Below are positions 36,096-63,702 of a stretch of DNA of 64,000 nucleotides, one piece after another. The notes under the pieces are model-generated. The model was not told the origin of the DNA and searched no databases. It worked only from the letters and a program-made list of their open reading frames with translations. Numbering within the stretch: position 1 is the stretch's first letter; each line of letters opens with the position of its first letter. The stretch is from Coleofasciculus sp. LEGE 07092 (GTDB lineage Bacteria; Cyanobacteriota; Cyanobacteriia; Cyanobacteriales; Coleofasciculaceae), in contig NZ_JADEWY010000014.1 in assembly GCF_015207375.1 (NCBI RefSeq), positions 1 through 64,000 on the forward strand, written 5' to 3'. A program made the translations under genes and the position numbers.

Positions 36096-37241
36096 TTAAG
36101 GAATAAATTCCGTTACCACTCTATCTCCACTAGCACCACTGCTAACGACAATACTTTGATCCTGAAGTTTACCCACTGCCGTCGCACCCGTTACGTTAAA
36201 GGGTGGATCAATTTGTTTGTAAATTACGTTCCCCGAAGCTTGGATATTCTGAGTTGGAATCTCCCACCTCATTTGATTGGCGTAGAGTTCAGCTTGGTTG
36301 CGACTGCCAACACCTTGAACACCACCTGTCAAATTAGCCACGTTTTTCTCCAAATCAACCTGACCCTGATTGGCGGTAAGTACGACGTTCTCTTTCTGAT
36401 GAAAAATTTTGACCGGTTGGTCTGAAAGTACCGTTTCAGTATTCAAGTTCCAGATAGCTGAATTGGTAGATATCAAAACGGGTGGGTCTACGGATGTGAA
36501 TTGAGCGTTCTGCTTGAGGATTGCAACCTTGGTTTTCAGATTATACTCAGACTGATCTGCCTCTACCCGTTCTATCACAGTCTTGTCTTTGTATCGTTCC
36601 ATCCGGGATCGCTGGTCTCCAATCAATTTCTGCTCTTTGATTTGCCAGACCAGATGTTCTGTTTTCATCTGCAAGTTCGGGTTTTTAGAAAGTGCTGTAA
36701 CCGACCCTTTCAAGTCCACTTGCTGCTTGCGAGTGATATAGCGTCCTTCTTTTGCCGAAGCCTCAATTTGTTCAGGATGGATGCCTTTCAAGTTGTTGCG
36801 CACCACTAACAAATCGTCCTGAGGATACCATTCCAGCTCATCACCCTTGAATACAGTGCCGTTGCGGGTGTCAGTGGCAGTAATCTTCCCTTTCAGCAGG
36901 ATTGTTTTCCCATCCTCTTGAACTTCACCGCTATCGGCTGACACTTGCACAACCAATTTGCCATCTTGGAACAAGTCCCCCGTTGGCTTTTCAATCAGAG
37001 CGGTTTTTTTATCGTTAATGTAGGTGGCTTTTTCTGCTTTGACTCGCCATAGAGGATGCCCTTTTTCATCAAACTGATCTAAGGTGACATTGTTAAAGAC
37101 GAGACTTCCTTCAATTTCCGTTGCTGACGTATCTTTATCTAGCTTCTTAGCGGTGCGGCGGTCAGACTGACAGGCGGATAGGGAAGTCAGTGCCAACAGA
37201 CATAAACTGAAAGCAAAAAAATTTTTGAAACTCAAAATCAT
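36096..37241 (-). CDS. lptC: LPS export protein LptC, cyanobacterial long form
   Basis: A lipoprotein signal (hydrophobic to LLALTSLSACQ, lipobox with Cys) leads into repeated beta-strand units of the LptA/LptC type: GSLVFNNVTLDQFDEKGHPLWRVKAEKATY and further GDELEWYP, VADQSEYN-like and LYANQMRW repeats. At about 380 residues it is roughly twice the E. coli LptC, as is normal in cyanobacteria. It bridges the inner membrane LptBFG and periplasmic LptA. ATG 37241 is used; GTG 37271 is possible. The LabA-like gene is 86 bp upstream on the same strand. Confidence 0.82.
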   Translation of the reverse strand: MILSFKNFFAFSLCLLALTSLSACQSDRRTAKKLDKDTSATEIEGSLVFNNVTLDQFDEKGHPLWRVKAEKATYINDKKTALIEKPTGDLFQDGKLVVQVSADSGEVQEDGKTILLKGKITATDTRNGTVFKGDELEWYPQDDLLVVRNNLKGIHPEQIEASAKEGRYITRKQQVDLKGSVTALSKNPNLQMKTEHLVWQIKEQKLIGDQRSRMERYKDKTVIERVEADQSEYNLKTKVAILKQNAQFTSVDPPVLISTNSAIWNLNTETVLSDQPVKIFHQKENVVLTANQGQVDLEKNVANLTGGVQGVGSRNQAELYANQMRWEIPTQNIQASGNVIYKQIDPPFNVTGATAVGKLQDQSIVVSSGASGDRVVTEFIP

Positions 37242-37298
37242 TGAGGACAAATTTGTATTGAATCCAGACACCAGCCATTAGTCATCAACTTTTGAAGG

Positions 37299-37333
37299 AC
37301 TAATGACTAATGATTAATGACTAGTTACTAATG
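37299..37333. repeat. Heptanucleotide tandem repeat (STRR), ACTAATG type
   Basis: Five 7-bp units: ACTAATG, ACTAATG, ATTAATG, ACTAGTT, ACTAATG. Short tandem heptamers are typical of filamentous cyanobacterial genomes. It overlaps the last codons of the LabA-like gene. Confidence 0.7.
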
Positions 37334-37945
37334 ACCCATTGATTGTTCTTCTGGTTCGTCCATCATGCCGATACCGGACAATGGACGGTAGGTGTAGTTT
37401 TGTCGGGGTGTCTTGCGGATAGTGTCTTGGATTTGATCTAGATCGATGTAGCGATCTGCAACGTTAATGAGACTATCGCTAGTCATTGAACGCAAACTCA
37501 CTACCTCAACCCGAACCCCCCGATAGCTGACAGCATCTACGGCATATGCCAAATCACCATCGCCACTGACAAGAACGGCGGTGTCGTAGGAACCCACCAG
37601 TGCCATCATGTCTACGGCAATTTCTACGTCTAAATTGGCTTTTTTCGAGCCATCGGGTAGCTGTACCAAATCCTTGGCAATAACTCGATAACCGTTACGG
37701 CGCATCCACAGCAAAAAGCCCTGTTGCTTTTCGTTAGTGCGATCGACGCCCGTGTAAAAGAAAGAACGCAGCAATCTTGAACCTGCGGTTAAACGAACCA
37801 ACAACTTAGTATAGTCAATTTCAATTCCCAGTTGCAAGGCAGCATAAAACAAGTTTGAACCGTCAATGAAAATAGCTACCCGACCGCGATTTTCTAAAAC
37901 TTGTTCAGGTGTAAAAATTGGATCAGTATTAAAGTTATTCAACAT
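37328..37945 (-). CDS. LabA/DUF88-like NYN domain protein
   Basis: The 205-residue protein has the NYN core: RVAIFIDGSNLFYAALQLG (first Asp), LDVEIAVDMMAL (second acidic pair) and TAVLVSGDGDLAYAVDAVSYRGVRVEVVS. LabA-like proteins are linked in cyanobacteria to circadian feedback and to RNA metabolism. The ATG at 37945 is chosen over a start at 38002 because the extension is not NYN-like. A Pro/Glu-rich tail ends MDEPEEQSMGH. Its location between lptC and a metG relic is notable. Confidence 0.88.
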   Translation of the reverse strand: MLNNFNTDPIFTPEQVLENRGRVAIFIDGSNLFYAALQLGIEIDYTKLLVRLTAGSRLLRSFFYTGVDRTNEKQQGFLLWMRRNGYRVIAKDLVQLPDGSKKANLDVEIAVDMMALVGSYDTAVLVSGDGDLAYAVDAVSYRGVRVEVVSLRSMTSDSLINVADRYIDLDQIQDTIRKTPRQNYTYRPLSGIGMMDEPEEQSMGH

Positions 37946-38022: not shown

Positions 38023-38883
38023 TCAGTTAATCTCGTGTGGAAGGCGACGGAACAAGCTTAAGCTTGACTCCAATCGCGAAAAAACAGGTTTTGGCGTATC
38101 CAAGCTCTGCTTAGAGGGAAAAATCCCCCATAGAGCGTGAGTCGGATAGGTTGCTGAATTTTTAATGAGAGCTTTTTCGTAAATGTCAATTGGATAGCCT
38201 AGCTTTTGGTAAATAGCGGTGCTGATATTGGCAATAATCGGTGAGAGTAGATAAGCTGCTAGTCTAACTGATTCCCAGATTGTGTACAATACCTGATCGA
38301 CGGATTGCTGTTTCCCTTGCTTATAGGAGTTCCAGAGTACTTGGTCGTCCAAAAACTTGTTACAAGCTTCTGTCCGGATCAATATCTGGCAGCAACCTTT
38401 ACTAAAAGTTGGGGCTTTGTCAGCTTTCGCAATCCACTCCCTCAATTTTAGACGGATGGCATTGGGAGAGTGCTCCCCTAAAATTGCTTGAGTTGGGATA
38501 GCCGACACTGAAGCCCTACAGTATTTGTTCGCTTTATCCAATATTCCCTTGAGCCAGTTTCCGCGATCGCCTACAAGATCAGTATTCACACTATTATTAA
38601 AACGAATTTCGCGAAAGCCCCCATCTTGGCTCAACTTTGTCCCATTGAGGAAGTCGTAGCAAATCGCCTCAGTACCATAACCCTCGATCAACTCCTCTAG
38701 ATTGAGGGTTTTATCGAGAATTTTTCTCATTTTCTGACTATATTCCGTTAGGAAGCCATGACCGCATACTTGTGCGACAATTGTAAGCTCTTCTGAACCT
38801 AGCATGACAGACCCGCAAACAGTATGAAATTGCAGAATATCTTTATTAATGAGAACACCCTCCCGCCAATTCGCTTTTAAATT
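38023..38883 (-). pseudogene. metG: Relic of methionyl-tRNA synthetase (C-terminal part)
   Basis: The frame, open back to 38883 without a start at its true 5' end, matches MetRS in order: LINKDILQFHTVCGSVML, VCGHGFLTEYSQKMRKILDKTLNL, GTEAICYDFL, GGFREIRFNNSVNTDLVGDRGN, then the anticodon-binding domain WESVRLAAYLLSPIIANI and THALWGIFPSKQSL. The KMSKS signature is replaced by KMRKI, the DxxRYYFLRE and DLxNxLGN blocks are eroded, and the Rossmann half with HIGH is gone. An ATG at 38805 would give 260 residues. Decay in place after replacement by another MetRS is the simplest reading. A working metG must lie outside the window. Confidence 0.8.
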
Positions 38884-39230
38884 CTAGTGTACGGCTACGA
38901 GTACCAACTCTCGTCGATAAATCTACTCGGCTTTACTTAGCATTTTTAGCAGAAAACGTATCAATTACTACAAAGAATTCCATAACCTTACTCAAGGTTG
39001 TTTAAAAAAATTGAAATAACTCTAAAAAAGATATTAATTCTCAATATTGGGGATCGCGGCTGCTTTATCTGAGATGCATTGAGAGCCGTCAGTCCCTGAA
39101 GCAGTTTGTCAAACCCGTAAATAGCTAAGTATCGTAAAGAAAGATTAACTAGGGCGAGGATCGTTGCAACCTAGGATTTGGTGCGCAAACAATCTCGTTT
39201 GATACTTCGCGATTGAATGGAACGATAATA
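38884..39230. other. Intergenic region upstream of the metG relic and hydrolase
   Basis: About 345 AT-rich bp. No continuation of MetRS-like sequence was recognised in the minus frames beyond 38883, so the 5' half has been deleted or has diverged. The promoter of the 39231 hydrolase is presumably near its 3' end. Confidence 0.4.
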
Positions 39231-40067
39231 ATGGTACGAATAACGAGTCATCCTTGTCTTCTGACACCGGGAGAACTAAAACCCGAGTCTCCCTTGTTCG
39301 TATTTTTACCGGGGATGGATGGAACGGGTCAGTTGTTGCGATCGCAGACCCAAGGCTTAACCCAAGCATTTGATGTTCGATGCTTGGCAATTCCTCCCGA
39401 CGATCTCAACCACTGGGATGACCTCACCGACGAGGTGATACACCTCATTGAAGCAGAATTGACCGAGCGCCCTTCTCGTTCAGTGTATCTGTGTGGGGAG
39501 TCCTTTGGGGGCTGTTTGGCGCTAAAGGTCGCACTGAGAGCTTCTCATCTGTTTGACCGAATTATTCTGAGCAATCCAGCAACCTCCTTCAGTCAGCAAC
39601 CTTGGTTCCTGTGGGGATCACCGTTGATTAGCTGGCTACCAGGCAATTTTTACAGCCTATCCGCTTTAGGATTTTTACCCTTTTTAGCCTCACTAGACAA
39701 GCTAGCCCCGAGCGATCGCCGCGCCCTTTTAGATGCCATGCGCTCTGTGCCTGCAAAAACCGCGAATTGGCGCTTGTCGATGTTGAAGGAGTTTAATGTT
39801 GACGAAGGGCAACTCGAACGCTTGACTCAACCCATCTTGGTTATAGCCAGTGCTGCTGATCGGTTATGGTCTTCATTACCAGAAGCCAAGTACCTGGTTG
39901 AATGCCTACCCAACGCCAAGATGTTGGTATTACCTCACTCAGGTCATGCCTGCTTGCTAGAAGCAGCCGTAAACCTCTTTGAGATTCTCAACGACCATGA
40001 TTTCTTAGATTCTTCTGTTTTTGCACGAGCAACAGCAACCAGTTCAACGGAAATTATTGGGGTCTAA
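39231..40067 (+). CDS. Alpha/beta hydrolase
   Basis: A 278-residue soluble hydrolase: PLFVFLPGMDGTGQLL (oxyanion loop), VYLCGESFGGCLALKVA (nucleophile elbow GESFGG), VIASAADRLWSS (acid) and LPHSGHACLLEA (His). The pattern resembles the esterase half of plant and cyanobacterial phytyl-ester/diacylglycerol acyltransferase-like proteins, but no acyltransferase domain follows. The start at 39231 directly precedes the conserved region; an ATG at 39213 is an alternative. The 3' end overlaps the convergent COP23 gene by 24 bp. Confidence 0.85.
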   Translation: MVRITSHPCLLTPGELKPESPLFVFLPGMDGTGQLLRSQTQGLTQAFDVRCLAIPPDDLNHWDDLTDEVIHLIEAELTERPSRSVYLCGESFGGCLALKVALRASHLFDRIILSNPATSFSQQPWFLWGSPLISWLPGNFYSLSALGFLPFLASLDKLAPSDRRALLDAMRSVPAKTANWRLSMLKEFNVDEGQLERLTQPILVIASAADRLWSSLPEAKYLVECLPNAKMLVLPHSGHACLLEAAVNLFEILNDHDFLDSSVFARATATSSTEIIGV

Positions 40068-40829
40068 GCGACGATTAGAACGCACCCGGCTTCCCCCACG
40101 CAACTGGGTACCTGTGCCACCGTCGGCTGGGTCTAAAAACGGTCGTAGGTTAATGCTATCGGCGGAACGCCCAATCGGGGTTTTGCCCATTCCCAAAGCA
40201 GATAGCCCCTCATTTAACACTTGATTCACTAACTCGGAACTCCTACCCCCTTCTACAAACGTTGCTACCGCATCGGTTTGCTCACCGCTATCGGCAACGG
40301 TTAAGTTTTCAAACACAAGGTCGCGGGTTTGCTGGGGATCTTGACCGGGAGGCACGGTCAGCACAATTTGACAGGCAGAATTTTTCTGGGTGGTGACACA
40401 GATGATATCGTAATTGTTTTCGACACCCGTTTGCATTTCTAGCAAGCCATCCGAGCGGTAAAATTCTAGACGCCTGCTGATCTCGTTACAGCGCCGTTCT
40501 GCTGACCAGCCACCGCCCATAGCACTGGGAGTTGCCCAAGGATAAGTTTGACCGGGTTGGCTTTCAGGATGGTACATCACACTATACTCCCCATCCACGA
40601 ATTGGCAGGTAAACCGAGGAGCATCGGAGTCATTGGCTTCAGATTGAGTATCTTGAGCTAATGTAGTTTTAGGGGATAGCTGGGATTGGACATCAGTGGA
40701 TGTTTGGGAGCCGTTTGCGGCAAAGGCGCTATTGCCTGTTAAGAAAATTGCAGTACTGGCTGACAAACCAAGGGTTTTAATTAATAAAGACATTCGCTCT
40801 GATTTGGGAGTATACTGCGAGAATCTCAT
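40044..40829 (-). CDS. COP23-domain secreted protein
   Basis: A signal peptide (SLLIKTLGLSASTAIFLTGNSAFA) precedes a linker and the COP23 domain: PRFTCQFVDGEYSVMYHPES, then YPWATPSAMGGGWSAERRCNEISRRLEFYRSDGL, with the CVTTQ...ACQIVLTVPPGQDP end and a Cys pattern suggesting disulfides. COP23 was described as a circadian oscillating membrane protein of cyanobacteria; its role is unknown. The ATG at 40829 is chosen because GAAGGA sits 8 bp before it; 40838 and 40793 are alternatives. A basic, Asn-rich tail extends past the domain. Confidence 0.82.
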   Translation of the reverse strand: MRFSQYTPKSERMSLLIKTLGLSASTAIFLTGNSAFAANGSQTSTDVQSQLSPKTTLAQDTQSEANDSDAPRFTCQFVDGEYSVMYHPESQPGQTYPWATPSAMGGGWSAERRCNEISRRLEFYRSDGLLEMQTGVENNYDIICVTTQKNSACQIVLTVPPGQDPQQTRDLVFENLTVADSGEQTDAVATFVEGGRSSELVNQVLNEGLSALGMGKTPIGRSADSINLRPFLDPADGGTGTQLRGGSRVRSNRRLDPNNFR

Positions 40830-41137
40830 AGAATCCATCCTTCAGTATTTAATTGGGATTGCGGCTACCAGGGTTTAGCTCGATAAAGCAGAGTGATCGC
40901 CGTTGGGGGTTGGCAGACGGTCGGGGGTAATTTAACCCGTAGACGGAAGCATTGGGATAGTGGTTCCCCATTTACCCTGATTCTATTACCACAAAAAGCT
41001 GACTTTAAAAAGATTGCCTGTTGATATTAATCAGTTTGCTGATGTTTGATTAAATGGGTTAATGTCAACAAATCTTTATCATGTCGTTAAGAAGCTTTAT
41101 ACTACCAAAGGATACTAGATAAGGAGCAAAGACAACG
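40830..41137. other. Divergent intergenic region COP23 / crtR
   Basis: A 308-bp gap with both promoters. An AT-rich tract lies at 40985-41060 before crtR. No repeat or recognised operator was seen. Confidence 0.4.
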
Positions 41138-63221: not shown

Positions 63222-63454
63222 TCAATCAGGGGGATATCTTTTGGGTAGATTTGGGTGAACCTTCAGATTCAGAACCGGGGTATTATCATCCTCATGTGGT
63301 AATTCAAAATAATGCGTTCAATCGTAGTCGCATCAGTACGGTTGTGGTTTGTACATTAACTTCAAATTTGAGACGAGCGAAAGCACCAGGGAATGTTTTG
63401 TTAGAACTAGGGGAGGCTAATTTGCCAGAGCAAAGCCAGTCAGCCAGTGGTTAA
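63215..63454 (+). pseudogene. MazF/PemK-type endoribonuclease toxin, 3' end lost
   Basis: The 79-codon frame matches PemK/MazF: INQGDIFWVDLGEPSDSEPGYYHPHVVIQN, RISTVVVCTLTSNLRRAKAPGNVLLE, EANLPEQS. A full toxin continues VVNVSQ... for about 30 more residues, completing the fold. Here sequence from 63437 belongs to a hairpin repeat cluster (SQSASG, stop). The toxin is probably inactive or altered. Confidence 0.75.
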
Positions 63455-63554
63455 AACCACTGTCTTATAGCTAAAGTCGTCTAAAGACGACTGGATGAAA
63501 ATTTCAGTCCACTTCAGTGGACTTAAGCTATTAGCCCGGAGTTTTAACTCTGGG
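63445..63554. repeat. Four-hairpin REP-like cluster disrupting the PemK gene
   Basis: Four consecutive perfect or near-perfect palindromes: CAGTGGTTAAAACCACTG (63445-63462), AGTCGTCTAAAGACGACT (63475-63492), AGTCCACTTCAGTGGACT (63506-63523) and CCCGGAGTTTTAACTCTGGG (63535-63554). The third and fourth are known-looking cyanobacterial REP units, of the type associated with TnpA-REP transposases. Confidence 0.8.
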
Positions 63555-63702
63555 CGGGTTGTGTAGCTTGCTGAGAATGGTGCAAGACTCCTTGTCACCC
63601 CATTGTTTAAAAAAATTGAGTACAAAACTGCATAAGGGGATAGAGGGTGAGAGATATAGTGTCAGTGAATGATACAGTGCAATCCCTATCCCCGGTTGAG
63701 CC

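Follow-up and report, generated by a model that had tools for sequence, protein, structure and literature searches.

A native metG half-gene beside a LabA-like gene in Coleofasciculus sp. LEGE 07092, probably displaced by a foreign methionyl-tRNA synthetase

The DNA analysed here, a window of 64,000 nucleotides from Coleofasciculus sp. LEGE 07092, contains next to a LabA-like gene an open frame that resembles only the C-terminal half of a methionyl-tRNA synthetase (MetRS). This raises the question of whether the frame is what is left of the ancestral metG after another MetRS took over, or a protein kept for a function other than catalysis. The window genome (G000) comprises 6.7 Mb and is 99.9% complete, in a draft of 296 contigs with a reported contamination of 2.2%.

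A metG half-gene in its ancestral place

The frame is read on the minus strand from 38883 to 38026, with its stop codon at 38023-38025. The features of the locus to which the text refers are the following:

38023..38883, minus strand: open frame of the metG relic, stop to stop, 286 codons (ORF listing and alignment to intact MetRS)
38062..38853, minus strand: part homologous to native MetRS, relic residues 11-274 corresponding to native codons about 269-528
38719..38733, minus strand: ruined KMSKS loop (KMRKI), from alignment to relatives
38026..38061, minus strand: run-on of 12 codons past the lost native stop codon
38803..38805, minus strand: first ATG of the frame, 26 codons in
38854..39046, minus strand: surviving native metG promoter/5' leader, fused to the C-terminal half (local alignment to the DNA upstream of metG copies)
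38853..38854, no strand assigned: deletion junction, the leader being joined to native codon ~269 (LIGKDIL), with start codon and HIGH half lost
37328..37945, minus strand: LabA-like NYN-domain gene, constant downstream neighbour of metG (Pfam NYN, E=1.1e-34)
36096..37271, minus strand: LptC-like gene, next in the conserved order (Pfam LptC, E=1.6e-29)
39213..40067, plus strand: alpha/beta hydrolase gene, upstream neighbour, also beside metG in G017, G018 and G021

The homologous part spans the end of the catalytic domain, the KMSKS loop and the anticodon-binding domain, and its 264 codons, which contain neither a stop nor a frameshift, are 45-51% identical to intact MetRS genes of the same family, against a mean of 76% among the intact genes themselves in the same columns. 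The NCBIfam models PRK12267 (E=1.2e-36) and metG (E=4.7e-32) match the relic with their C-terminal half only, the Pfam model tRNA-synt_1g matches with positions 287-388 of 391, and the whole-protein scores remain below the curated cut-offs (126 vs 598 bits for PRK12267, 111 vs 336 for metG). The nearest solved structures are those of Aquifex (2csx) and Mycobacterium (2x1l), the Staphylococcus enzyme also being among the nearest. At the catalytic loop the relic reads KMRKI where relatives have KMGKS or KMGKT (KISKT in one genome). A glycine stands where an arginine lines up with Aquifex R357, which we take to be an anticodon contact, and a tryptophan is retained at what is presumably a later anticodon contact. 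With the native stop codon gone, 12 extra codons have been added at the 3' end, and neither the HIGH motif nor any other part of the N-terminal Rossmann half of native MetRS was found in the DNA upstream of the frame. The relic therefore lacks each of the marks of a functional metG, namely a HIGH half, a KMSKS-type loop and a curated score. The observation of a metG half-gene is confirmed: the initial annotation had described a C-terminal MetRS half in one open frame, with KMSKS ruined and the HIGH half missing, and all three points hold. Its further statement that homology begins 26 codons upstream of the first ATG needs amendment, as the last 16 of these codons are MetRS sequence and the first 10 belong to the metG leader.

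These ten codons (NLKANWREGV) can be assigned to the old leader, read in frame and including GGGAGGG at 38858-38864, since the upstream DNA matches metG leaders and not the N-terminal coding half. Local alignment to the DNA upstream of intact metG copies gave scores of 113 for G020 (best of 100 shuffles, 31), 46 for G001 (28) and 41 for G019 (26), and the broken metG of G021 scored 81 (30). The native sequence resumes at codon 11 of the frame, the equivalent of native codon about 269; a single deletion took the start codon together with about 268 codons and fused the leader to the C-terminal half. Other interpretations of the junction were rejected. An N-half deletion common to the window genome and its sister G007 was considered from the presence of GGGAGGGTGTT in both; this stretch is metG leader and is followed in G007 by a native-like start, so the two deletions arose independently. 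The alignment of NLKANWR to the zinc-knuckle region is a chance match of leader sequence, and the N before KDIL shared with G021 reflects a simple change of the native codons CTC ATT GGT to CTC ATT AAT, not a common junction.

Gene order identifies the relic as the native metG in its ancestral place, because the LabA-like (NYN) gene directly follows metG in all 18 relatives of the same family that carry an intact copy; lptC comes next wherever their flank extends that far. The native gene of these relatives sits exactly at the position of the relic, in agreement with the initial annotation, which had pointed to gene order as a check. Near the LabA-like gene, at 40047-40838, the window also encodes a COP23-like protein (circadian oscillating protein).

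The foreign enzyme and the stages of replacement

The initial annotation had also proposed that a functional MetRS be sought elsewhere. The window genome encodes a sole full-length MetRS, a protein of 560 aa on contig C10 that shares 24% identity with the relic, and no second type 1 metG was found in this genome. The C10 protein exceeds the cut-off of a different family, PRK00133 (595 vs 587 bits), its nearest solved structures are Pyrococcus 1rqg (3e-135) and human cytosolic 5gl7 (3e-133), and these matches mark it as a foreign, archaeal/eukaryotic-like (type 2) enzyme, which would presumably do all the methionine tRNA charging of the cell. By the nomenclature of PMC8165550, a type 2 enzyme has apparently taken the place of one of type 1.

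The foreign type occurs in nine of the 391 genomes of the order, and a scan of named genomes found it in Calothrix, Brasilonema, Iningainema and other cyanobacteria, with more distant matches in Streptomyces, Alphaproteobacteria and a Bacillota MAG. The MetRS of two Streptomyces genomes (L102, L103) is 61% identical to the foreign type. A 20-row tree places the cyanobacterial copies together, with the Bacillota MAG, Streptomyces and Alphaproteobacteria outside. The expectation that the other MetRS would have a foreign phylogeny is thus borne out as far as a different, patchily distributed type is concerned, while the donor lineage is not placed by this tree. The copy of G019, a genome from the window's own family, groups with those of Nostocales (100/99) and not with those of G000 and G007, which suggests that the gene probably moved between cyanobacteria or was sorted by loss. 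In G000 and G007 the foreign MetRS adjoins the same ABC-transporter gene (77% identity), and four-fold site identity between the two genomes is 0.43 both in the NYN gene and in the foreign MetRS, which makes them relatives of long standing; on these grounds the foreign enzyme was probably present before the two lineages split, the native copies probably breaking independently afterwards.

Several stages of the exchange can be read among the relatives. Nearly all genomes are native only (383 of 391 genomes match the relic as query, although in a few the match is no stronger than one to the foreign type). Both enzymes are found in five of the nine genomes with the foreign type: G019 has a native frame of 536 aa and a foreign frame of 566 aa, and G062, G225, G354 and G382 were scored as carrying both from matches in both searches, the native match being intact-looking. 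Foreign enzyme and native relic occur together in the window genome and in G007, whose native copy keeps its leader, start and a recognisable 3' part, with many stops and frameshifts. The foreign type without a native copy is found in G025 and G188; in the latter (L113:1351-3050, G188:C79) the only MetRS found consists of two overlapping frames, which points to a genuine frameshift or else to a mistake in the assembly. Finally, G001 combines an intact native metG with a stub of about 52 codons from the tail of a foreign MetRS (E about 1e-10), which is suggestive of one case with the opposite outcome, the foreign copy being the one lost; no trace of such a stub was found in G002, the sister of G001. 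The stub lies at L107:7325-7480 (G001:C1) between two ABC-transporter permease genes, which do not stand beside foreign MetRS genes elsewhere. In G021 (L111:3586-4464, G021:C230) the native metG carries two in-frame internal deletions and one frame-breaking deletion, and no other MetRS, foreign included, was seen in this 90% complete assembly.

Lateral transfer is known to replace aminoacyl-tRNA synthetases (aaRSs) by way of a stage with two enzymes, as in the case of LysRS1 and LysRS2, the truncated LysRS2 of Treponema pallidum representing an advanced phase of that stage, and strains of Streptococcus pneumoniae with two MetRS genes have been cited in the same context (PMC1475646). As in the LysRS system, a foreign type has been gained, both enzymes coexist, one is then lost and a truncated copy may be left; in contrast to it, the present case concerns MetRS in cyanobacteria, both enzymes are of class I, the relic still has its conserved neighbours, and one bacterial order displays several stages, among them what may be a loss of the foreign copy. 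MetRS1/MetRS2 pairs, in which MetRS2 is insensitive to an inhibitor (PMC8165550), likewise show a type 2 enzyme beside or in place of type 1 with a patchy distribution. Here, however, the type 1 copy is lost and not kept, and no sign of an inhibitor or of resistance was seen. A literature search with most subscription journals outside its scope found no publication on this case. The locus is a clear and unusually well staged further case of a known process, this time for MetRS in cyanobacteria. As a rule, only trees bear witness to the exchange of an essential translation enzyme for a foreign one. In the present case the steps can be followed across related genomes, from native only through both enzymes and a foreign enzyme with a native relic to the foreign enzyme alone, with a possible loss of the foreign copy besides, which offers a system for asking for how long the two types of MetRS live side by side and which of them wins.

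Displacement, retention and the codon models

The explanation we favour, at a probability of a little under nine in ten, is that the frame is the native, type 1-like metG in its ancestral place, a dead or dying half-gene displaced by a foreign type 2 MetRS. It starts from what is directly seen, i.e., position, truncation, a foreign full-length enzyme, relaxed constraint and the other stages of the swap in relatives, and adds an order of events to them. The lineage would have gained a second, archaeal/eukaryotic-like type 2 MetRS at another locus, and a long period with both enzymes would have followed, a state in which several relatives remain today. Constraint on the native metG would then have been lost, its start codon and HIGH half would have gone in one deletion, and erosion would have reached the KMSKS loop, the native stop codon and one anticodon contact. 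This is the decay after gain of another MetRS that the initial annotation had preferred, and the foreign gene on C10, the gene order of 18 relatives and the relaxed constraint all agree with it. An intact native metG elsewhere together with strong purifying selection on the frame, which that annotation had named as speaking against displacement, is not the situation in this genome: there is no second type 1 metG among its contigs, and constraint is strongly relaxed.

The degree of relaxation was estimated with codon models run with custom scripts and not with a published package. In a branch model, omega is 0.33 on the relic branch and 0.14 elsewhere, differing both from the background (LRT 16.4) and from 1 (LRT 27.6). 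With three site classes, the log-likelihood is -6497.8 if the relic is under the same constraint as the native genes, -6469.4 with omega 1 throughout, -6457.3 for a functional phase followed by neutral change with stops allowed, -6453.2 for the same without stops, and -6453.6 for a relaxed coding gene (exponent 0.32). Native-level constraint on the relic branch is rejected by 44 log units (-6497.8 vs -6453.2), and omega of 1 throughout the branch is rejected as well. Constraint is largely gone at catalytic sites, and neither full constraint nor neutrality throughout describes the branch. That omega is 0.33 and not 1 means either that most of the branch was functional time or that some constraint remains.

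The main rival is that the half-gene is still translated and that its KMSKS and anticodon-binding part, expressed from the surviving metG promoter and ribosome-binding site, was kept without catalysis to bind tRNA or to serve in regulation once catalysis had passed to the foreign enzyme. New functions are known for truncated aaRS paralogues (PMC4787780, PMC2922099), duplicated aaRSs being common (PMC4787780). The uninterrupted 264 codons, the retained ribosome-binding-like GGGAGGG and the last ~85 codons, which look nearly native, would fit such a protein, and so would the advantage of 3.6-4.1 log units that the coding-but-relaxed model holds over decay with stops allowed. Under pure decay about four stops are expected and none is seen, with a probability of 1.4% at the best-fitting neutral time and of 4-5% at the shortest neutral times that the fit allows (1-5% overall), at a cost to pure decay of about 4 log units; as the case was picked for its open frame, this absence is only modest evidence against pure decay. 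Against retention, the most conserved catalytic sites have changed as they would in neutral decay, glycine has replaced the arginine aligned with R357, about 18 codons separate the ribosome-binding-like site from the first ATG downstream of it, and sister G007 has destroyed its own copy. The relic shares with known truncated paralogues the survival of an aaRS part without aminoacylation, but those are conserved as proteins, whereas the present one is broken in the sister genome, and its catalytic sites have changed in a neutral-like way. Taken together, a retained protein seems unlikely. That the frame was kept open to avoid transcriptional polarity was considered and seems improbable: G007 has stops at the same place, and to our knowledge cyanobacteria have no Rho.

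An assembly artefact or contamination as the source of the truncation or of the foreign MetRS might be entertained for a draft in 296 contigs, but it is very improbable, as the relic diverges from all relatives over its whole length, no intact type 1 copy accompanies it, and in the G007 assembly, which is independent, the foreign MetRS again adjoins that ABC-transporter gene.

The slow 3' end of the relic

Decay has not proceeded evenly along the half-gene, and one segment stands apart:

38062..38316, minus strand: slow-decaying 3' segment, relic residues 190-274, candidate control element of the downstream genes

In these ~85 codons the neutral component is 0.06, vs 0.22 upstream (scan LRT 15.3), i.e., decay is about three times less than in the rest. 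As an addition to displacement, and not an alternative to it, the gene may be dead as a protein while its 3' end is sheltered because it contains an element, e.g., a promoter, that controls the LabA-like and lptC genes, a possibility to which we give somewhat less than even odds. Slowness at all sites describes the segment better than slowness of the protein only, but the gain of 2.2 log units does not settle the matter, and the three-class site model may miss some rate variation. The independently broken copy of G021 also has a slow 3' end (0.034 vs 0.106, LRT 8.4), its total rate being 0.13 in the 3' part and 0.36-0.45 in two upstream pieces, and in G007 the same region is the only coding part that scores clearly above shuffles. 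Among intact native genes, synonymous identity is in excess in codons 485-530 (P=0.0015, uncorrected for the seven segments), but not in codons 441-484. Scans of the 3' region for sigma-70 promoters and terminators gave nothing above shuffles and no good sigma-70 match, and an Rfam search of it gave no match. The pattern is a hint that a control element of the two downstream genes may lie inside the end of metG, and suggests that a dying gene may be able to shelter a control element of its neighbours. Elsewhere in the window, positions 63438-63557 belong to a repeat of about 120 bases that is dispersed in many copies over this genome and those of its relatives.
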